Shown piece by piece: positions 53,458 through 62,241 of a DNA stretch of 64,000 nt. Position numbers and translations under genes: made by a program. Positions within the stretch are counted from its first letter, which is position 1. Each line of letters opens with the position of its first letter. Source of the DNA: Winogradskyella echinorum (lineage in GTDB: Bacteria > Bacteroidota > Bacteroidia > Flavobacteriales > Flavobacteriaceae); assembly GCF_014297365.1 (NCBI RefSeq), contig NZ_JACOQD010000002.1, positions 62,001 through 126,000 on the forward strand, read 5' to 3'. The notes under the pieces were generated by a model. It saw only the letters and a program-made list of their open reading frames with translations. It searched no databases and was not told the origin of the DNA.

Positions 53458-53507
53458 TTTATAGTCTAAATATTAAAAATATCTTAAAAATTATAATTCG
53501 TACATTA

Positions 53508-53544
53508 TTTGTTAGGATTAATAATTTTAATTTATCGATATTTG
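53508..53544 (+). promoter_or_regulatory. hisG: Likely promoter of the his operon
   Basis: TTTG (53508-53511), then 25 bases, then GATATTTG (53537-53544), one base off TAnnTTTG. Transcription would start near 53551 and include the whole leader peptide at 53563. Spacing is slightly longer than the consensus. Confidence 0.42.
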
Positions 53545-53562
53545 TACTAACAAAAGAACAAC

Positions 53563-53616
53563 ATGGTATTTATTCAATTACATCATCATTTTCATATAAT
53601 CGCTCAAGCGAGGTGA
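53563..53616 (+). CDS. His operon leader peptide
   Basis: A 17-codon frame, MVFIQLHHHFHIIAQAR followed by TGA, with three His codons in a row and a fourth two codons later. His codons make up 4 of 17 positions, typical for attenuation peptides sensing charged tRNA-His. It lies 110 bases upstream of hisG, followed by a terminator at 53649-53688. The last part (53603-53614) can pair with the terminator's 5' arm, as described in the next entry. The assignment needs no homology. Confidence 0.85.
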   Translation: MVFIQLHHHFHIIAQAR

Positions 53617-53688
53617 AAGTGTATTGAATAAAATCAAAATATATTTTAAAAACCCGTTTGAGAATTCAGACGGGTTTTGTGTTTTTTT
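53600..53688 (+). promoter_or_regulatory. His attenuator: antiterminator and intrinsic terminator
   Basis: Terminator: AAAACCCGTTTGA (53649-53661), loop GAAT, TCAGACGGGTTTT (53666-53678), 13 pairs with one wobble, then GTG and seven T. Antiterminator: CTCAAGCGAGGT (53603-53614) pairs with ACCCGTTTGAG (53652-53662), with one bulged A and one G-U, using the same bases as the terminator's 5' arm. A small hairpin TCGC-TCAA-GCGA (53600-53611) could hide the antiterminator when the leader is not translated. A ribosome stalled at the His codons (53581-53595) leaves 53603-53614 free; one that reaches the stop (53614-53616) covers it. This is classical attenuation. Confidence 0.85.
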
Positions 53689-53726
53689 AACTCAAATGAA
53701 TTCTTAGACATAACTAAAAGTAGAAA

Positions 53727-54584
53727 ATGAGTAAACTAAAAATTGCTGTTCAAAAATCGGGTCGCCTTCACGATGATTCTATGAAAATTCTAAAAGAAAT
53801 CGGAATTTCAGTTGACAATGGTAAAGATCAACTTAAGGCATCAGCCCGAAATTTCCCATTAGAAGTTTTTTATCTTAGAAATGGTGATATACCACAGTAT
53901 TTAAGAGATGGTGTTGTAGACGCTGCAATCATAGGCGAAAATGTGCTAATAGAAAAAGGAAATGATCTTACTATTGTAGAGCGTCTTGGATTTTCTAAAT
54001 GTAAAGTGTCTATTGCTGTACCTAAATCATCTAAGGCAAACAGTTTAAAAGACTTAGAAGGCAAACGTATAGCAACTTCATATCCAAATACTGTTAATCA
54101 ATTTTTAGAGAAAGAACATATAAAGGCCAATCTTCATATCATTAATGGTTCTGTTGAGATTGCACCAAATATTGGTCTCGCTGATGGTATTTGTGATATT
54201 GTTTCTAGTGGAAGCACCTTATTCAAAAATGGATTAAAAGAAGTTGAAGTGCTTTTAAAATCCGAGGCTGTTTTAGCTACTTCGCCAAAAATATCAACGG
54301 ATAACCAAGCGTTAATTGATAAGATTCAGTTCCGTTTAAAATCCGTTTTAAAAGGACGAGAAAACAAATATGTATTGTTAAATGCACCAAACGACAAATT
54401 AGAGCAAATCATAGATATTCTTCCAGGTATGAAAAGCCCAACAGTTTTACCCTTAGCACAAGAGGGTTGGAGTTCTATTCACTCAGTAATCAATAAAAAT
54501 GACTTTTGGAATGTTATTGACGAGCTAAAAGCTAATGGTGCAGAAGGTATTTTAGTATGTCCAATAGAAAACATGGTATTATAG
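53727..54584 (+). CDS. hisG: ATP phosphoribosyltransferase (long form)
   Basis: A 285-residue enzyme, joining ATP and PRPP in the first step of histidine synthesis. KIAVQKSGRLHDDSMKILKE is the N-terminus, GICDIVSSGSTLFKNGLKEV the PRPP-binding region, and the C-terminal part from ~215 (VLLNAPNDKLEQIIDILPGM, SPTVLPLAQEG) is the histidine-binding regulatory domain of the long form, so feedback inhibition is expected in addition to attenuation at 53563-53688. The start is ATG at 53727, 39 bases after the attenuator. Confidence 0.95.
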   Translation: MSKLKIAVQKSGRLHDDSMKILKEIGISVDNGKDQLKASARNFPLEVFYLRNGDIPQYLRDGVVDAAIIGENVLIEKGNDLTIVERLGFSKCKVSIAVPKSSKANSLKDLEGKRIATSYPNTVNQFLEKEHIKANLHIINGSVEIAPNIGLADGICDIVSSGSTLFKNGLKEVEVLLKSEAVLATSPKISTDNQALIDKIQFRLKSVLKGRENKYVLLNAPNDKLEQIIDILPGMKSPTVLPLAQEGWSSIHSVINKNDFWNVIDELKANGAEGILVCPIENMVL

Positions 54585-54585
54585 T

Positions 54586-55872
54586 ATGAAACTATTTGAA
54601 AATCCAAATAAATCAGATTGGTCAGAATTACTAAAACGACCGACACAAACTGTTGAAGATATTGAGATAATTGTAAATCAAGTTTTCGAAGATGTTTCAA
54701 AAAATGGTGATAAGGCTGTCGAAAAATATACTAGTAAGTTTGATGGTGTAACACTTCAGAATACCATAGTATCTCAAATAGAAATTTCTGATGCTGTCGC
54801 AAATATTCCTGAGGAATTAAAACAAGCCATTCAACTTGCAAAATCTAATATTGAGAAATTTCACAGTGCCCAAAAAACAGACAAGGTTTTTGTTGAAACC
54901 ATGAATGGAGTAGAGTGCTGGCAAGAAAAACGACCTATCCAAAAAGTAGGTTTATATATTCCAGGTGGCACAGCACCATTATTTTCAACGGTTTTAATGT
55001 TAGCTGTTCCTGCTCAAATTGCAGGTTGTAAAGAGATTGTTCTGTGTTCACCACCTAATAAAGAAGGGAAAATTGCTAACGAAATTTTATACGCTGCGCA
55101 ATTATGTGGAGTGACTCAAATTGTAAAAGTTGGTGGTATTCAAGCTATTGCTGGACTCACATTTGGCACAGAAACGATTCCACAAGTTTATAAAATATTT
55201 GGACCAGGAAACCAATTTGTAACCGTTGCAAAGCAATTGGCAACCAAGTATGGTGTAGCTATTGATATGCCTGCAGGTCCAAGTGAATTGTTGGTAATGG
55301 CAGATGAATCTGCTAATACTGCTTTTGTGGCATCCGATTTATTGAGTCAGGCAGAACATGGAAAGGATAGTCAGGTGATATTAGTGACTACTTCAAGGAG
55401 TTTCGCGGATTTGGTTTCGGCAGAAGTAGAAAAACAATTAGAAGGGTTACCGAGAAAAGATATGGCAAAGATTGCCATTTCTAACTCTAAATCTATTGTG
55501 GTCGATAATTTCGAAACAGCTTTAGATCTCATTGATAGGTATGGACCAGAGCACTTTATTGTTGCTACTAATGATAATGACTTCTTTGTAGAAAACATAA
55601 GCAATGCAGGTTCTGTTTTTATTGGCAACTACACACCAGAAAGTGCTGGTGATTATGCTTCAGGTACCAATCATACCTTGCCAACTAATGGGTTTTCAAA
55701 AGCATATTCTGGAGTTAATTTAGATAGTTTTCAAAAGTCTATGACCTTTCAGAAAATTTCAAAAATAGGTATTCAAAATATAGGAACTGCTATAGAATTA
55801 ATGGCAGAAGCTGAAGGATTACAAGCGCATAAAAATGCGGTTTCATTACGATTAAAAGATTTGGAGTCATGA
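54586..55872 (+). CDS. hisD: Histidinol dehydrogenase
   Basis: A 428-residue zinc enzyme for the last two oxidations to histidine. VGLYIPGGTAPLFSTVLMLA, KIFGPGNQFVTVAKQLATKY and IDMPAGPSELLVMADESA are family blocks, DLLSQAEHGKDSQVILVT holds the Gln-His zinc region, and YGPEHFIVATND and YASGTNHTLPTNG carry further catalytic residues. It starts one base after the hisG stop and overlaps hisC by 4 bases. Confidence 0.95.
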   Translation: MKLFENPNKSDWSELLKRPTQTVEDIEIIVNQVFEDVSKNGDKAVEKYTSKFDGVTLQNTIVSQIEISDAVANIPEELKQAIQLAKSNIEKFHSAQKTDKVFVETMNGVECWQEKRPIQKVGLYIPGGTAPLFSTVLMLAVPAQIAGCKEIVLCSPPNKEGKIANEILYAAQLCGVTQIVKVGGIQAIAGLTFGTETIPQVYKIFGPGNQFVTVAKQLATKYGVAIDMPAGPSELLVMADESANTAFVASDLLSQAEHGKDSQVILVTTSRSFADLVSAEVEKQLEGLPRKDMAKIAISNSKSIVVDNFETALDLIDRYGPEHFIVATNDNDFFVENISNAGSVFIGNYTPESAGDYASGTNHTLPTNGFSKAYSGVNLDSFQKSMTFQKISKIGIQNIGTAIELMAEAEGLQAHKNAVSLRLKDLES

Positions 55873-56903
55873 ATATAGATAGTTTAATTAGAGATAATAT
55901 AAAAGCTCTTAAACCATACTCTTCAGCTAGAGATGAATTTAAAGAATTCTCTAGTGATATTGTTTTCTTAGATGCAAATGAAAATCCATTCGAAAATGGA
56001 GTAAATCGCTATCCAGATCCACAACAACTTTCAGTGAAAGCGAAATTGTCTGAAATAAAAAATATAGCAAACGAGCATATTCTTTTAGGAAACGGGAGTG
56101 ATGAAGTCTTAGATTTAATATTCAGAGTTTTTTGTGAACCCAATAAGGATAACATAATAACTTTGCCACCAACGTATGGTATGTATTCAGTTCTTGCAAA
56201 TACCAATGCGGTAGGTATTAAAGAAGTGTCGTTAAATGAAGATTTTCAGCCAAACGTTGATGCTATTCTAAAAACAGCAGATGCAAATTCAAAGTTGCTA
56301 TTCTTGTGTTCGCCTAACAATCCGACGGCAAATAGTTTTGATGCAAAAAAAGTTGAAGATTTAATAAGAAAATTTGAAGGCATTGTTGTTATTGATGAAG
56401 CTTATATAGATTTTTCAAATCAAGAAAGTTGGCTAAGTCGATTAAATGAATTTCCAAATCTTATAGTCACTCAAACATTGTCTAAGGCTTACGGAATGGC
56501 AGGCATACGCTTGGGAATCTGTTTTGCTTCCGAAGAAATTATAAATGCTTTAAACAAAATTAAGCCACCATATAATGTTAACCAATTAACACAAGCCAAA
56601 GCGTTTGAAAGGCTTATTAAAATTGATGACGTTAACAAAGAAATTGAGGCAATTTTGAATGAGCGGAAGCGATTAATAGAAAAGCTTAATTCGATTTCAT
56701 TTGTTGAACAAATTTTTCCATCTGATGCTAATTTTGTTTTAGTAAAAGTTGATAATGCAACTGGGCGTTACAATGAACTTGTAAAAAAAGGAATCGTGGT
56801 AAGAAATAGAACCAATCAACCTGGTTGCGAAAATTGTTTACGTTTTACGATTGGGACGGAAAAAGAAAATATGAGGTTAATAGAAATATTAAAAAAAATG
56901 TAA
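55869..56903 (+). CDS. hisC: Histidinol-phosphate aminotransferase
   Basis: A 344-residue PLP aminotransferase converting imidazole-acetol phosphate to histidinol phosphate. FLDANENPFENGVNRYPDPQ is the HisC N-terminal signature, LLGNGSDEVLDLIFRVFCEP the PLP phosphate region, CSPNNPTAN and VVIDEAYIDFS bind the ring, and TQTLSKAYGMAGIRLG holds the Schiff-base lysine. It overlaps hisD by 4 bases and is followed by a paired hairpin repeat before hisB. Confidence 0.95.
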   Translation: MNIDSLIRDNIKALKPYSSARDEFKEFSSDIVFLDANENPFENGVNRYPDPQQLSVKAKLSEIKNIANEHILLGNGSDEVLDLIFRVFCEPNKDNIITLPPTYGMYSVLANTNAVGIKEVSLNEDFQPNVDAILKTADANSKLLFLCSPNNPTANSFDAKKVEDLIRKFEGIVVIDEAYIDFSNQESWLSRLNEFPNLIVTQTLSKAYGMAGIRLGICFASEEIINALNKIKPPYNVNQLTQAKAFERLIKIDDVNKEIEAILNERKRLIEKLNSISFVEQIFPSDANFVLVKVDNATGRYNELVKKGIVVRNRTNQPGCENCLRFTIGTEKENMRLIEILKKM

Positions 56904-56910
56904 AAGTGTT

Positions 56911-56936
56911 TGTCATTCCTGCGAAAGCAGGAATCC
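56911..56936 (+). repeat. Dispersed hairpin repeat, copy 1a (hisC-hisB gap)
   Basis: TGTC then the perfect hairpin ATTCCTGC-GAAA-GCAGGAAT then CC. Eight paired bases with a GAAA tetraloop. A reverse-oriented copy follows at 56959-56983, so the two form a larger inverted pair, as in REP-type elements. Confidence 0.82.
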
Positions 56937-56958
56937 AATTAAAAAAATAACCAAAATA

Positions 56959-56983
56959 GATTCCTGCCTACGCAGGAATGACA
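56959..56983 (-). repeat. Dispersed hairpin repeat, copy 1b (reverse orientation)
   Basis: GATTCCTGC-CTAC-GCAGGAATGACA, the reverse partner of copy 1a. It supplies an ATG (56978-56980) in frame with hisB that is very probably not the start. Confidence 0.82.
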
Positions 56984-56989
56984 GAAAAT

Positions 56990-58126
56990 ATGAAGATACC
57001 AGTACTATTTATAGACAGAGACGGAACCTTAATCAAAGAACCTGCAGATGAACAAATCGATTCATTTGAAAAATTAGAGTTCTACCCAAAAGTATTTCAA
57101 TATTTAAGCAAAATTGCTAAAGAACTGAATTTTGAAATCGTAATGATTACCAATCAAGATGGTTTAGGGACAGATGTATATCCAGAAGATACTTTTTGGC
57201 CAGTACATAATTTTGTTCTCAAAACTTTTGAATCGGAAGGTATAATTTTTAAAGAACAATTTATCGATAGAACCTTCGCAAAAGATAACGCTCCAACACG
57301 GAAACCAAATACAGGTTTATTAACCAAGTATTTTTCTGAGCCTTATGATTTAAAAAATTCATTTGTTATTGGAGATCGACTTACAGATGTTGAACTAGCC
57401 AAAAACCTTGGATCAAAAGGCATCTTTATTAATGACAATACCAATTTAGGAACAGATGAAGTTACAGTAAGTAATAATGAATTAGAGCAGTATATTGCTT
57501 TAGAAACAAATGATTGGGAAGAAATTTATAGGTTTCTAAAATCTACAGAACGTGTTGGTAGCATAGAGAGAAATACCAACGAAACCAAAATTAAAATCGA
57601 TTTAAATTTAGACGGAACAGGTAAAAGTAGTATTGACACAGGGATTGCTTTTTTCGATCATATGTTAGATCAGATTGCACGTCATGGTCAATTAGATTTA
57701 AACATAAAGGTTGATGGTGATTTAGAAGTAGATGAGCACCACACTATTGAAGATACTGCTATTACTTTAGGTGAAGTATTTGCTACAACATTAGGTAATA
57801 AATTGGGTATAGAGCGTTATGGTTTTTCATTACCTATGGATGATTGCTTGGCGCAAGTTGGTATTGATTTTGGAGGAAGAAACTGGTTGGTTTGGGATGC
57901 CGAATTTAAACGTGAAATGATAGGCAAAATGCCAACAGAAATGTTTTACCATTTCTTTAAATCCTTTACTGATGGTGCTAAGTGTAATCTTAATATAAAA
58001 GTTGAAGGCACCAATGAACATCATAAAATTGAAGCCATCTTCAAGGCCTTTGCAAAAGCCATTAAAATGGCTGTTAAGCAAGATGTTGAGAAGATGATTT
58101 TGCCTTCTACAAAAGGAATGCTTTAA
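56990..58126 (+). CDS. hisB: Bifunctional histidinol phosphatase / imidazoleglycerol-phosphate dehydratase
   Basis: A 378-residue fusion. The HAD phosphatase domain (1-~165) shows [14 protein letters not shown] and [16 protein letters not shown]; the dehydratase domain (~185-378) shows [51 protein letters not shown] and [20 protein letters not shown] with the manganese-binding histidines. I take the start as ATG 56990 ([12 protein letters not shown]). An ATG at 56978 is in frame but lies inside the hairpin repeat, so translation from it would add TENM-type residues with no homology. Flanked on both sides by paired repeats. Confidence 0.94.
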
Positions 58127-58134
58127 TTAGGGTT

Positions 58135-58160
58135 TGTCATTCCTGCGAATGCAGGAATCC
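58135..58160 (+). repeat. Dispersed hairpin repeat, copy 2a (hisB-hisH gap)
   Basis: TGTC then ATTCCTGC-GAAT-GCAGGAAT then CC, 8 bases after the hisB stop. The same element as copy 1a with one loop change. Its reverse partner is at 58183-58207. Confidence 0.82.
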
Positions 58161-58182
58161 ACTTTGAAGTATTGAATAATTA

Positions 58183-58207
58183 GATTCCTGCTTTCGCAGG
58201 AATGACA
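58183..58207 (-). repeat. Dispersed hairpin repeat, copy 2b (reverse orientation)
   Basis: GATTCCTGC-TTTC-GCAGGAATGACA. With copy 2a it makes an inverted pair with a 22-base spacer. It ends 11 bases before the hisH ATG. Confidence 0.82.
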
Positions 58208-58218
58208 ATAAATGGCCA

Positions 58219-58800
58219 ATGAAAATAACAATAGTAAATTACGGAGCAGGAAACATAAAAAGTATTCAATTTGCTTTTCAAAGATTAGGTTTTGAAGCCG
58301 TTTTAACGAATAGCCCTGAAGAGATAATAAAATCTGATAAAGTAATATTTCCCGGAGTAGGTGAAGCTAGCACAGCAATGATAAAGTTGAAGCAAAGTGG
58401 CTTAGATGAGTTAATACCAACTTTAAAACAACCTGTTTTAGGAATCTGTTTGGGTATGCAATTAATGTGCAATCATACCGAAGAAGGAAATACACCAGGT
58501 TTAGGAATTTTTGATGTCAACGTAAAACGTTTTTCTAATAAGGTAAAGGTGCCACAAATGGGTTGGAATACCATTTCAAATCTGAAATCCGATTTATTTA
58601 AAGGAATAAAAGAAAAAGAATACATGTATCTTGTGCATAGTTATTATGCCGAACAGTGCGATGAATCCATTGCAACATCAGATTATGATCTAGAATATGC
58701 ATCAGCATTAGAGAATGATAATTTTTTCGGAGTACAATTTCATCCTGAAAAGAGTAGTAAAGCAGGAGAGCAAATTTTAAAAAACTTTATTGAATTATAA
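58219..58800 (+). CDS. hisH: Imidazole glycerol phosphate synthase, glutamine amidotransferase subunit
   Basis: A 193-residue class I amidotransferase that supplies ammonia to HisF. KITIVNYGAGNIKSIQFAFQ is the N-terminus, VLGICLGMQLMCNHTEEG near 74-91 carries the nucleophile Cys78, and VQFHPEKSSKAGEQIL gives the His-Glu pair. The start is the ATG at 58219 just after repeat copy 2b. Confidence 0.95.
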   Translation: MKITIVNYGAGNIKSIQFAFQRLGFEAVLTNSPEEIIKSDKVIFPGVGEASTAMIKLKQSGLDELIPTLKQPVLGICLGMQLMCNHTEEGNTPGLGIFDVNVKRFSNKVKVPQMGWNTISNLKSDLFKGIKEKEYMYLVHSYYAEQCDESIATSDYDLEYASALENDNFFGVQFHPEKSSKAGEQILKNFIEL

Positions 58801-58841
58801 GATAAAGGTCGCTTTTACATGTTAGCACATCGCTAAAAGAT

Positions 58842-58861
58842 AAAAGCCAAAAGCCAAAAGC
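58842..58861 (+). repeat. Short tandem repeat, about three copies of AAAAGCC, before hisA
   Basis: AAAAGCCAAAAGCCAAAAGC directly precedes hisA in the 68-base hisH-hisA gap. Likely a slippage-type repeat. It may tune spacing or coupling; no other signal is seen. Confidence 0.6.
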
Positions 58862-58868
58862 TAATTAT

Positions 58869-59603
58869 ATGAGAATAATACCAGCCATAGATATCATAGA
58901 AGGAAAGTGCGTACGTCTTACAAAAGGCGATTACGACACCAAAAAAATATACAACGAAAATCCCTTAGAGGTTGCCAAAGCTTTTGAAGCTTCAGGTATT
59001 GAATATCTGCATCTTGTAGATTTAGATGGAGCTAAAGCGAAGCACATCGTAAATTATAAAGTGTTAGAATTACTAGCTTCAAAAACAAATCTCAAAATTG
59101 ATTTTGGTGGAGGCTTAAAATCTAATGAAGATTTAAACATTGCATTTAATTCTGGTGCAAAACAGATTACAGGAGGAAGCATCGCTGTAAGTGATAGAAC
59201 CACTTTTGAAGGTTGGTTATCTAAGTATGGAGCGCAAAAAATCATTTTAGGTGCAGATAGTAATGATGGAAAAATAGCGATAAACGGTTGGCAAGATAAT
59301 AGTAAAGAGGAAGTGATTTCTTTTATAAAAGATTATCAAAGAAAACACATTCAATATGTTATTTGTACCGATATATCTAAAGATGGTATGTTAGAAGGCC
59401 CTTCAATTGAGCTGTATAAAAAGATAATAGACGAATGCAGTAATAGTAGTGGAGCACAATCTATAAAATTAATTGCTTCAGGAGGTGTTTCAGAAATAAA
59501 TGATTTGGAGGATTTAAAAACTATTGGTTGCGAAGGAGTCATTATCGGAAAAGCTATATACGAAAACAGGATAAGTTTAAAGGAACTAGAACGATTTATT
59601 TAA
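58869..59603 (+). CDS. hisA: ProFAR isomerase (1-(5-phosphoribosyl)-5-[(5-phosphoribosylamino)methylideneamino]imidazole-4-carboxamide isomerase)
   Basis: A 244-residue (beta/alpha)8 barrel. [20 protein letters not shown] is the N-terminal catalytic Asp block, [12 protein letters not shown] and [17 protein letters not shown] the phosphate loops, and [20 protein letters not shown] carries the second catalytic Asp. [14 protein letters not shown] closes the phosphate site. It is separated from hisF by a single base. Confidence 0.95.
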
Positions 59604-59604
59604 T

Positions 59605-60360
59605 ATGCTCACAAAACGTATAGTCCCTTGTTTGGACATTAAAAATGGAAGAACTGTTAAAGGTGTCAATTTTGTAGATTTAAGAGATGCAGGCGATCCT
59701 GTAGTATTGGCCAAACAGTATGCAGAATTAGGAGCAGATGAATTAGTGTTTCTTGATATTGCTGCAACACTCGAAAATAGAAGGACTATGCACGACATGG
59801 TTTTAAAAGTAGCAGAACAAGTTAATATACCCTTTACAGTTGGTGGTGGAATTTCATCAGTTGAAGATGTAGATGATTTATTGCATTGTGGTGCTGATAA
59901 GGTGTCAATTAATTCTTCTGCGGTAAAACGACCAGAACTAATTAATGAACTTTCAGATAAATTCGGAAGTCAGTGCGTAGTGGTGGCAATTGATGCCAAA
60001 GAGGTAAACGGTGAATGGTTGGTGCATTTAGCGGGAGGAACAATTCCAACAGAATTAAACCTTTTTGAATGGGCTAAAGAAGTAGAGCAACGTGGTGCTG
60101 GTGAAATATTATTTACCTCGATGAATCACGATGGTACCAAAGCCGGTTTTGCAAATGAAGCTTTAGCCAAATTATCTAGCCTAGTTAACATTCCTATAAT
60201 AGCATCTGGTGGAGCTGGTACAATGCAACACTTTGTAGATACTTTTAAACAGGGAAAAGCTGATGCTGCATTGGCTGCGAGTGTGTTTCATTTTGGTGAA
60301 ATCCCAATTATAGAATTAAAAAAAGAATTAAGAAAAAATAATATTGAAGTACGATTATGA
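59605..60360 (+). CDS. hisF: Imidazole glycerol phosphate synthase, cyclase subunit
   Basis: A 251-residue barrel that uses HisH-derived ammonia to form imidazole glycerol phosphate and [25 protein letters not shown] (Asp11 catalytic), [53 protein letters not shown] (second Asp) and [17 protein letters not shown] are the family blocks. It overlaps hisIE by 4 bases. Confidence 0.95.
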
Positions 60361-60956
60361 ATGTAGATTTTAATAAAAATCCAGATGGTCTTGTGCCGGC
60401 AATAATTCAAGATGCAACTACTAATACTGTATTAATGTTAGGCTACATGAATGCTGAGGCGCTTAAAAAAACAATAGAAACCAAATTGGTTACTTTCTTT
60501 AGTAGAACTAAACAAAGGCTTTGGACCAAAGGGGAAGAAAGTGGTAATGTTTTAAATTTAGTTGATATAAAATTAGATTGTGATAGTGATTCTTTATTGA
60601 TAAAAGTCAACCCAAAAGGACCAACTTGTCATAAAGGAACAGATACTTGTTGGAATGAAACTAATGAAGCATCTTATGGTTTCATTTCAAAACTTGAAAA
60701 CACCATTACATCTCGAATAAAAGCAGGTGAATCCGAGAAGTCTTATGTAGCATCTTTATTTGCTAAAGGAATAAATAAGGTAGCTCAAAAAGTAGGAGAG
60801 GAGGCAGTAGAAGTAGTTATAGAAGCTAAAGATAATAACGACGAATTGTTTTTAGAAGAAAGTGCTGACTTATTATTTCATTATTTAATGTTGCTGCAGG
60901 CTAAGGGTTATAAATTAAATGATGTGGTTGATGTTTTAAAAAGTAGAGAGAAATAA
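60357..60956 (+). CDS. hisIE: Bifunctional phosphoribosyl-AMP cyclohydrolase / phosphoribosyl-ATP pyrophosphatase
   Basis: A 199-residue fusion for steps 2 and 3. The HisI part (1-~110) shows [31 protein letters not shown] and [20 protein letters not shown] followed by CHKGTDTCW, with the zinc cysteines. The HisE part (~115-199) shows [20 protein letters not shown] and [15 protein letters not shown]. It is the last gene of the operon; a weak terminator follows near 61007-61048. Confidence 0.95.
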
Positions 60957-61050: not shown

Positions 61051-62241
61051 TTATTTATTAGCATCTATAATTTCTAAAGTTTGTTCCAGCCAGTCTCTAT
61101 TAAAATCTAACTGAAATTCTGGTGTTATTCCTTTTCCTTCATAAGCTATGTATTTATGAAAATTCATATCTGTTGGTGTCATGTTGAAGTATCCTGAAGG
61201 TGTATTATAATTATATCCGTAATTCATTCCATAAGCTATAATACCTCGAGTAGTTTGTCCTAAATGCGTGGCGTTTTTGTTTTTTAAAAGTTTTAACGTG
61301 AATTGTTCTCCATTACTTCCTGCAAAGCAGTTAGTTATTACATATACATTTTTGTCCTTTATTAATTGAAGAAAGGAATCTGAGAATTTTTTATTTCCAC
61401 CACTATTGCTTCTTAAATCAACAATGATATTCTTAGCAGTTAGTTTGTCTTTAGTATCGTTATAGAATTTTATTAATTCTCTTTTCTTACTATTACTAAA
61501 CGTTTTAAAATAGAGGTACTGTGTGTCCTTATTAATTTGACTAAACGATGCCACTTTAACATCATTATCAACAAACTCGTAATTTAGATTATTGCCTTCT
61601 TTCTTATAAGACCAAATACGACCATTTTCAAAAGACAGACTTTTTACAAAACCTGGTATTTTAGTGTCAACATTATAATAATAAAAGTTGTATTTATTGC
61701 CTTGGGTGTGTGTTGCATAAAATCTAATATCACCAGTTTGCCAATGCTCTAATTCTGTTTCTAAAACAACACCTATAAGATCTTTCTTATTTTCTGAATA
61801 ATAAATACCAATTCGCTCTTTCTTATTATAGTTGTAGACGCCTTCTAAGTCATCTAAATCTTTTTGACTTAATTCTTCAGTTAACTCAGAAATATCATAA
61901 CTAGTCTTAGGATGCTTATTAATGTTTTCTTTAGCACTATTAGATTTATTAACTTGAAGCGAGGCATGAACATCATTAACCAAATTCATCTGCTCTAATA
62001 AAAGTTTATAGCAATCTTCTACTAATATTGGCTGTTGCATTTTAGCTGATACACGATTGTAGGTATTTAAGAACTCTGTTGTTTTCCCTCCTTTAATCTG
62101 CTTTTTATAAGAAGGCATTTTTTTCATTTTATCGACTATGAAATCTAAATCGGTTTTACAGTCACAAGTTTCTGATTGTGCAGTAATTGAAATAGTCCCA
62201 AATAAAAAAAGGAGTAGTAGTAAGAATAAATTTTTCATCAT
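61051..62241 (-). CDS. S41 family peptidase-like secreted protein
   Basis: A 396-residue protein with a signal peptide (MMKNLFLLLLLFLFGTISIT followed by AQ). The N-terminal part (~25-100) is helical with NDVHASLQV, and the C-terminal tail-processing-peptidase-like domain has YLYFKTFSN, IIVDLRSNSGGNKKFSD and VITNCFAGSNGEQFTLKL, where Ser near 310 fits the nucleophile, then THLGQTTRGIIAYG. The usual catalytic lysine (four residues after Gly-Lys in active Ctp enzymes) is not obvious, and no PDZ domain is seen, so activity is uncertain. It is probably periplasmic. It has a good promoter upstream and shares the region with the LytTR regulator gene. Confidence 0.8.
   Translation of the reverse strand: MMKNLFLLLLLFLFGTISITAQSETCDCKTDLDFIVDKMKKMPSYKKQIKGGKTTEFLNTYNRVSAKMQQPILVEDCYKLLLEQMNLVNDVHASLQVNKSNSAKENINKHPKTSYDISELTEELSQKDLDDLEGVYNYNKKERIGIYYSENKKDLIGVVLETELEHWQTGDIRFYATHTQGNKYNFYYYNVDTKIPGFVKSLSFENGRIWSYKKEGNNLNYEFVDNDVKVASFSQINKDTQYLYFKTFSNSKKRELIKFYNDTKDKLTAKNIIVDLRSNSGGNKKFSDSFLQLIKDKNVYVITNCFAGSNGEQFTLKLLKNKNATHLGQTTRGIIAYGMNYGYNYNTPSGYFNMTPTDMNFHKYIAYEGKGITPEFQLDFNRDWLEQTLEIIDANK

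Follow-up and report, generated by a model that had tools for sequence, protein, structure and literature searches.

At the start of the his operon of Winogradskyella echinorum lies a putative attenuator, which we analysed within a 64,000-nucleotide (nt) stretch of contig NZ_JACOQD010000002.1 (forward strand, positions 62,001 to 126,000; hereafter the window). The element directly precedes hisG-D-C-B-H-A-F-IE, that is, genes for the same amino acid as the codons of its leader. An earlier note, made from the sequence alone, had ascribed to it the geometry of classical attenuation. We found that its core is that of a his attenuator and that the description was incomplete, as two further helices are additional to it: P1, and one formed by a segment that follows the terminator (segment 7). 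The features of the locus are the following, in window coordinates.

53512–53517, forward strand: TTAGGA, candidate −33 promoter element, weak by itself
53537–53544, forward strand: GATATTTG, candidate −7 element of the Bacteroidota housekeeping sigma factor (consensus TAnnTTTG; inexact fit)
53563–53616, forward strand: leader peptide open reading frame (ORF; hisL), MVFIQLHHHFHIIAQAR, 17 codons, stop codon at 53614–53616
53564–53583, forward strand: segment 1, the 5′ strand of P1, with the leader start codon and the next codons, from the fold
53581–53595, forward strand: regulatory His codons CAT CAT CAT TTT CAT (HHHFH), with 13 nt from the end of the run to the antiterminator arm
53603–53614, forward strand: segment 2, the antiterminator 5′ arm, from sequence and fold, its last base being the first base of the leader stop codon
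53619–53636, forward strand: segment 3, after the leader stop, pairing with segment 1 (P1) or folding within the antiterminator
53649–53678, forward strand: intrinsic terminator hairpin (segments 5 and 6), 53649–53661 with 53666–53678, 13 pairs, loop of 4
53652–53662, forward strand: segment 5, the antiterminator 3′ arm, common to the terminator 5′ arm, from fold and covariation
53679–53688, forward strand: U-rich tract of the terminator, read in the sequence and from the terminator scan
53690–53694, forward strand: ACTCA, able in folds to pair with TGAGT at 53728–53732 over the hisG start codon (weak, 5 pairs)
53697–53709, forward strand: segment 7, TGAATTCTTAGAC, 13/13 positions pairing with 53656–53668, ending 17 nt before the hisG ATG
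53727–54584, forward strand: hisG, first gene of the operon (TIGR00070, E value 2e-54)
54586–60956, forward strand: hisD, hisC, hisB (bifunctional), hisH, hisA, hisF and hisIE (best NCBIfam models above cut-offs)

The leader ORF has four His among its 17 codons, three of them consecutive, as the earlier note had read it, and no Shine-Dalgarno-like sequence is present upstream of its ATG in AAAAGAACAAC, which agrees with the note's proposal that translation starts without one. The 13-pair terminator was likewise recovered: a terminator scan returned this hairpin alone, compared with 0.1 (standard deviation 0.2) in shuffled sequences, and GTGTTTTTTT comes next. Both the sequence and the fold bear out the proposed 11-pair antiterminator, in which 53603–53614 pairs with 53652–53662, A53611 is bulged, the 5′ arm ends at the leader stop and an inner helix is enclosed by the arms. 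Bases 53652–53661 are common to the terminator and the antiterminator, so formation of the antiterminator excludes the terminator. The RNA from 53548 to 53690 folds at −40.4 kcal/mol (z = −6.5), with 0/200 shuffles as good. RNA 53596–53665 folds into the antiterminator, and RNA with the terminator 3′ arm included folds into the terminator.

The earlier note had further claimed that a ribosome at the leader stop would cover the antiterminator arm and that one stalled at the His codons would leave it free. The gap from the His run to the arm is 13 nt in the window and in most rows measured; in part of the near-relative alignment (A1, described below) the automatic count takes TCGCTCA as the arm and gives a 9-nt class, which is the window's pattern, the true gap being 13. 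A ribosome extends about 15 nt from its P-site to its front edge. Using this footprint, we folded five ribosome states, one of them with no ribosome, and found that RNA ending at 53665 formed the antiterminator with a probability of 0.98 when the ribosome occupied the third His codon and of 0.00 when it stood at the stop. Geometry and constrained folds thus both leave the arm free in the first case and covered in the second.

How far the element extends among relatives was assessed at several depths. We gathered 110 hisG loci, left out one with 51 nt of upstream sequence (L098), and reduced the remaining 109 to 98 distinct 350-nt upstream regions; a His-rich leader, here an ATG ORF of 8–30 codons with at least three His, was present in 98/98 of these near relatives. 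The nearest named HisG proteins are from Winogradskyella species, at up to 92% identity. Among sampled genomes, HisG was found in 56/60 of the genus, 107/130 of the family, 56/119 of the class and 88/99 of the phylum; of the 56 genus matches, 30 were examined as loci and five by place. For the family, class and outside-class samples, the leader test was a short ORF with three or more His within six codons. The family sample took one genome per genus, and its 105 upstream regions are the 107 matches minus the window's own and one counted in the class sample. A His-rich leader precedes hisG in 101/105 of these other Flavobacteriaceae genera, the exceptions being L209, which lies at a contig end, and L251, L258 and L273, where the best ORF has two His. 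In further hisG-bearing Bacteroidia the leader was found in 49/55 (54/60 with five genus rows) versus 3.3% of shuffles, a control applied to the class and outside-class samples only. Across genera the clustered His codons are kept while the flanking codons vary.

Outside the class, 29/67 matches were examined (20 chosen for family diversity and 9 among the best 30), and 16/29 passed the leader test versus 2.8% of shuffles. These passes comprise 7/7 of one family, 7/7 of another and two single cases, and 13 rows from other families fail. By eye, a terminator-like hairpin lies 3′ of the ORF in seven of seven members of one of the two families. His-rich ORFs such as MRKNSLHIIYHHGVHHAHHGHHHISVQ precede hisG in the other (L370–L376), where no terminator is evident to the eye; leader-based control may there be of another kind. 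Two variants closer to the window were also seen. Five loci of the same genus (L167–L171) encode HisG 63–64% identical to the window's and still have the leader, in a form whose terminator contains CGTCTGAA and whose antiterminator contains TTCAGGCG. In L068 a stop at a Gln codon shortens the leader (MTFIQLHHHHFHSGT), and the RNA arm is retained except for one C-to-T change that leaves a G-U pair. A search of the host genome with a model of the element, in which 150 of 4575 candidates were scored, gave one strong match, and a further 34, all weaker, followed up to E 10; the two next-best off-locus matches, L278 and L279, were rejected as further copies, as neither has a short ATG ORF with clustered His alongside.

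Aligning the his leaders of relatives, which the earlier note had suggested as a check, showed that the His codons are conserved and that the terminator and antiterminator covary. In A1, the alignment of the 98 near-relative sequences, 95.8% of terminator cells are paired, and two-sided cells number 29 (0/500 shuffles). A wider alignment, A2, joins the window and 104 of the 105 one-per-genus family rows with nine more, of which two come from the family, two from other families of the class and five from the genus, for 114 rows in all. Here the terminator reaches 43 two-sided cells (0/500 shuffles; covariation score 0.186). The eight-pair antiterminator core has 26 two-sided cells (0/500 shuffles; score 0.154) and pairs in 95.6% of all cells, compared with at most 49% for slid versions of the core. 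The pair 53607–53658, whose base 53658 is common to both helices, is A-U in 61 rows, G-U in 29 and G-C in 17, and never A-C; wherever 53658 is C (17 rows), 53607 is G. In the class sample, 40 rows combine a leader with a detected terminator, and in 22 of these the pairing between the two beat at least 95/100 shuffles. The 40/54 terminators detected in class rows are a lower bound, because in distant genomes the scan overlooked some terminators that are plain by eye.

P1 forms in the full fold between 53619–53636 and a stretch that runs from within the leader start codon up to the first His. This helix is paired in 90.9% of cells in A1 with 17 two-sided cells (0/500 shuffles), and the inner helix of the antiterminator, which uses segment 3, is 93.6% paired, without covariation. 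P1 is well supported among near relatives and weaker beyond, and it would explain the strong retention of TTTATTCAA before the His codons in near relatives. The earlier note had offered a small hairpin at 53600–53611 (4 base pairs, bp) as a default-off switch. We found that this hairpin can form and is not conserved: it is paired in 57.9% of cells, no better than shuffles, its third pair being missing in 67/98 sequences and its first in 71/98. P1 is more likely than this hairpin to be a default-off or pause structure, and the folds suggest that it would hide the leader start after the region 3′ of the stop is transcribed.

Segment 7 pairs with 53656–53668, which comprises the terminator 5′ arm and the loop, and two of the 13 pairs are G-U. 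We surveyed 207 distinct sequences, in 205 of which the terminator was located. A strong segment 7 match was found in 157/205 rows versus 110/2050 shuffles, with a mean duplex energy of −13.2 versus −5.4 kcal/mol in the shuffles. Its start lies a median of 23 nt (7 to 41) after the terminator arm and its end a median of 16 nt (13 to 101) before the hisG ATG in the 157 rows having it. A swap test, which is weaker as many loops are alike, placed a loop's own segment 7 partner in the top two of 26 for 45/83 distinct loops. In the class sample, segment 7 was significant in 11/41 tested rows, including 7/7 within the order.

Covariation of this helix was scored on a third alignment, A3, made without regard to structure from 77/100 rows, the other 23 being dropped for a spacer under 28 or over 75 nt. 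Of the cells of the segment 7 helix, 86.7% are paired, and the count of two-sided cells is 89 compared with 25.4 in shuffles (0/500); when slid, the helix gave at most 35 two-sided cells, and its covariation score of 0.328 fell to 0.089 or less. By these counts, with the other helices scored on other alignments, it is the most strongly covarying helix that the sequences of the element reveal. Loop columns 10 and 11 vary most (42 and 21 two-sided cells). These columns are unpaired in both the terminator and the antiterminator, so the covariation of segment 7 is no by-product of those helices.

We then considered what segment 7 might do. Lying 3′ of the U-tract, it is transcribed only on read-through, which excludes an action on termination in that same round, and no T-run follows it in the window that would make it part of a second terminator. 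Nor is it a general part of attenuators, being present in 0/10 trp terminators of the genus with enough spacer. Its position, on the upstream border of the hisG initiation region, suggests a part in translation, and our best guess is that segment 7 passes the attenuation decision to hisG translation. By eye, L182, L190 and L203 seem to carry insertions of small inverted repeats ahead of hisG, between the U-tract and the place of segment 7; segment 7 is retained in L190 and L203, and L182 has no clear one.

A promoter can be proposed upstream of the leader. A first scan for TAnnTTTG gave scattered sites (8/98 exact), and the conserved site came from a looser pattern: A[ATC]NTTTG occurs at −35 to −18 from the leader ATG in 96/98 near relatives, its distance to the ATG being 21–32 nt, versus 5/98 in a control window. 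TT[AGT]GGA occurs at −62 to −38 in 56/98 near relatives, the window included, versus 23/98 in the control. The sigma-A box has been placed at −12 to −5 (PMC9723704); together with the candidate −7 element, this predicts a transcript start near 53549 and a 5′ untranslated region of about 14 nt. Near relatives have A-rich bases ahead of the leader ATG. Messenger RNAs of Flavobacterium johnsoniae are described as lacking Shine-Dalgarno sequences, preferring A at −3 and −6 and having reduced structure from −20 to +20 (PMC6847099), a start-region pattern that the leader fits.

We consider it very likely that the element is a ribosome-mediated transcription attenuator of the his operon, and the operon is probably switched on when histidine runs short. 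The reading draws on features of the sequence, namely the ORF, the arms, their mutual exclusion, conservation, covariation and the operon, from which we infer the transcript start, stalling, termination, the response to histidine and the role of segment 7. RNA polymerase would start near 53549 and a ribosome at 53563 without a Shine-Dalgarno sequence. When charged tRNA-His is scarce, the ribosome would stall on the His run with its front edge at about 53599, leaving 53603–53614 free; this arm could then pair with 53652–53662 before the terminator 3′ arm exists, giving read-through into hisG. When histidine is plentiful, a ribosome at the stop codon would cover the arm and the terminator would form. 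If the leader is not translated, P1 is expected to favour termination and to hide the leader start codon. In read-through RNA, segment 7 could take the terminator 5′ arm and loop from both earlier partners, a pairing that most likely sets the level of hisG translation.

Several results weigh against this account or its parts. With the terminator 3′ arm present, the terminator is favoured at equilibrium (0.96–0.97) in all five ribosome states, the His-stalled one (0.97) included; the switch must therefore be kinetic, set by the order of synthesis. We regard this modelled outcome as a qualification and not a refutation, but it counts against a purely thermodynamic reading. Without a ribosome, RNA ending at 53665 still gives the antiterminator at 0.61, so P1 is no absolute block. 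The antiterminator core hardly varies in A1 and is without covariation there, its covariation coming from the wider A2, and 18/40 class rows have no significant antiterminator in the shuffle test. For P1, the pairs with two-sided change (3) and the pair types (13) are no higher than in shuffles; slid by one column it gives 24 two-sided cells, though paired in 33%, and it is better than nearly all shuffles in 64/98 rows of A1 and 44/114 of A2. No clear segment 7 is present in 48/205 rows, and outside the order it was found in 4/34 class rows (L121 and L144 strong, L148 and L158 marginal). The covariation pair counts are, moreover, uncorrected for descent.

Other explanations of the locus as a whole fare poorly. 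A+T-rich intergenic DNA readily gives short ORFs and hairpins, and the element could on that ground be a chance assembly, or an ordinary terminator that happens to follow a small ORF unrelated to it. The leader frequencies (98/98, 101/105 and 49/55, the last against 3.3% of shuffles) and the covariation of three helices speak to the contrary, and these sequence comparisons already exclude such an origin. If the leader were controlled without ribosome stalling, for instance by a T-box, a repressor that binds DNA or a protein that binds the RNA, the His codons would be incidental. This is highly improbable: the clustered His codons are kept across genera, their distance to the antiterminator arm is kept as well, and the window has no match at the gathering score to any Rfam family, T-boxes among them; T-boxes are also absent from the 17 Rfam matches up to E 10 in 53500–53740.

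How segment 7 works leaves more room for alternatives. One possibility, which we put forward tentatively, is that it is a translational lock on hisG, so that the attenuator controls both transcription and translation. As long as the terminator keeps the arm, the hisG start would be paired with segment 7 or with bases close to it, which would silence leaky transcripts; an arm leaving the antiterminator would instead go to segment 7, perhaps nucleating on the loop in a toehold step, and hisG would open. The short distance from segment 7 to the hisG ATG (median 16 nt, 157 rows) is in keeping with this. So are folds of 82 near relatives with segment 7, in which forcing the pairing of segments 5 and 7 (5:7) opened the region from AUG to +12 from 0.38 with the terminator to 0.61 on average, made −15 to +12 more accessible in 77/82, and in which the native upstream sequence lowered start accessibility (0.38 versus 0.54 with shuffled upstream sequence) in 62/82. 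Segment 7 also has a 10-bp match to the hisG start in L035, L058, L063 and L111. However, the best partner of the hisG start overlaps segment 7 in 54/82 loci only, and in the window it is ACTCA at 53690–53694 (5 pairs), not segment 7. The antiterminator state, moreover, leaves segment 7 free and the start closed (0.37), which is the wrong sign for starvation unless that state is converted to 5:7, and on average 5:7 falls 4.5 kcal/mol short of the terminator in stability, exceeding it in 3/82.

A broader and rather doubtful idea is that flavobacterial his attenuators are two-stage switches in which attenuation is proof-read at translation. The terminator 5′ arm and loop would have three successive partners, the leader arm, their own 3′ arm and the segment before hisG, and the 5:7 pairing would tell the hisG ribosome genuine read-through, with the arm coming from the antiterminator, from a leak, with the arm locked in the terminator. 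To our knowledge, no counterpart of such a two-stage his switch has been described. It is unlikely, finally, that segment 7 is a target in trans, with released attenuator RNA pairing through its loop with residual his mRNA immediately upstream of hisG and silencing or destabilising it. The complementarity does take in the terminator loop, whose columns covary most, and there is a precedent in the released attenuator RNA rnTrpL of Sinorhizobium meliloti, which has a further target in a biosynthetic mRNA, destabilising trpDC mRNA in trans (PMC7298713). As described there, however, rnTrpL acts on another operon (PMC7298713), whereas here the target would be the element's own mRNA; the same pairing is possible in cis, which is more likely and should win, and the complementarity extends further along the terminator 5′ arm than along the 3′ arm. 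Our preferred reading remains an attenuator whose decision segment 7 would hand on, in cis, to hisG translation.

The his leader of Escherichia coli and Salmonella has a short leader ORF with a run of seven His, an intrinsic terminator and a competing antiterminator before hisG. The element shares this plan of consecutive His codons, terminator and antiterminator. It differs in that the runs are mostly of three or four His, that no Shine-Dalgarno sequence is present, that P1 joins the leader start to the post-stop region, and that segment 7 follows the terminator. The Rfam His_leader family has no match to it, either at the gathering score or at E up to 10. Judged on those general features that can be tested, this is a known kind of device, a his attenuator, outside the Rfam His_leader family. 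We found no description of a his attenuator in Bacteroidota in the literature searched, most subscription journals being outside its scope; the abstract of Vitreschak et al. 2004 reportedly mentions attenuators in Bacteroidetes/Chlorobi. For Flavobacterium psychrophilum, of the same family, a published report describes strong signs of attenuation by leader peptides ahead of operons for amino-acid biosynthesis; the main text of that report does not mention histidine, and its passages on attenuation describe neither an antiterminator nor a segment 7 (PMC9723704). The element also resembles the ribosome-dependent attenuators of amino-acid operons presented in a comparative-genomics study, which suggests that these motifs originated in gamma-proteobacteria and have seldom spread (PMC3766115); against that suggestion, the his leader here is found in most hisG-bearing Bacteroidia sampled. 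What we regard as new is chiefly segment 7, together with P1 and the reach of the his leader across the class.

Leader-like ORFs were also seen before other amino-acid operons. In 21 genomes of the genus, a leader ORF with WWW precedes 19/19 full-length trpE genes (L281–L299). A GGCTTGTC...GACAAGCC terminator was detected in 15/17 located loci (of 19) and is visible in the other two, so that, judging from these sequences, trp attenuation looks as general as his attenuation in the genus. The window organism's own trp locus (L294) has the leader MKTTINNTWWWNFSNSCS and a spacer too short for the segment 7 test. By eye, a small inverted repeat (CTGAA...TTCAG) recurs directly before the trpE start in L282, L285, L296, L297 and L299. 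Ile-rich small ORFs (MNKQVINIISI...) upstream of ilvD in L301, L305, L308 and L311, and Thr/Ile-rich ones (...ISTIITLWGN-like) upstream of thrA in L317, L321, L322 and L328, are possible ilv and thr leaders; the remaining loci of the ilvD and thrA sets have no such ORF by the same filter.

Bacteroidia ribosomes are reported to fail to use Shine-Dalgarno sequences (PMC9976891). Our results indicate textbook ribosome-mediated attenuation as an old and general his control in a class that does not use these sequences. A leader start codon held in a helix with the post-stop region would offer a clean system for studying initiation in Bacteroidota, and through segment 7 a decision made in transcription may be linked to how hisG, the first gene of the operon, is translated.
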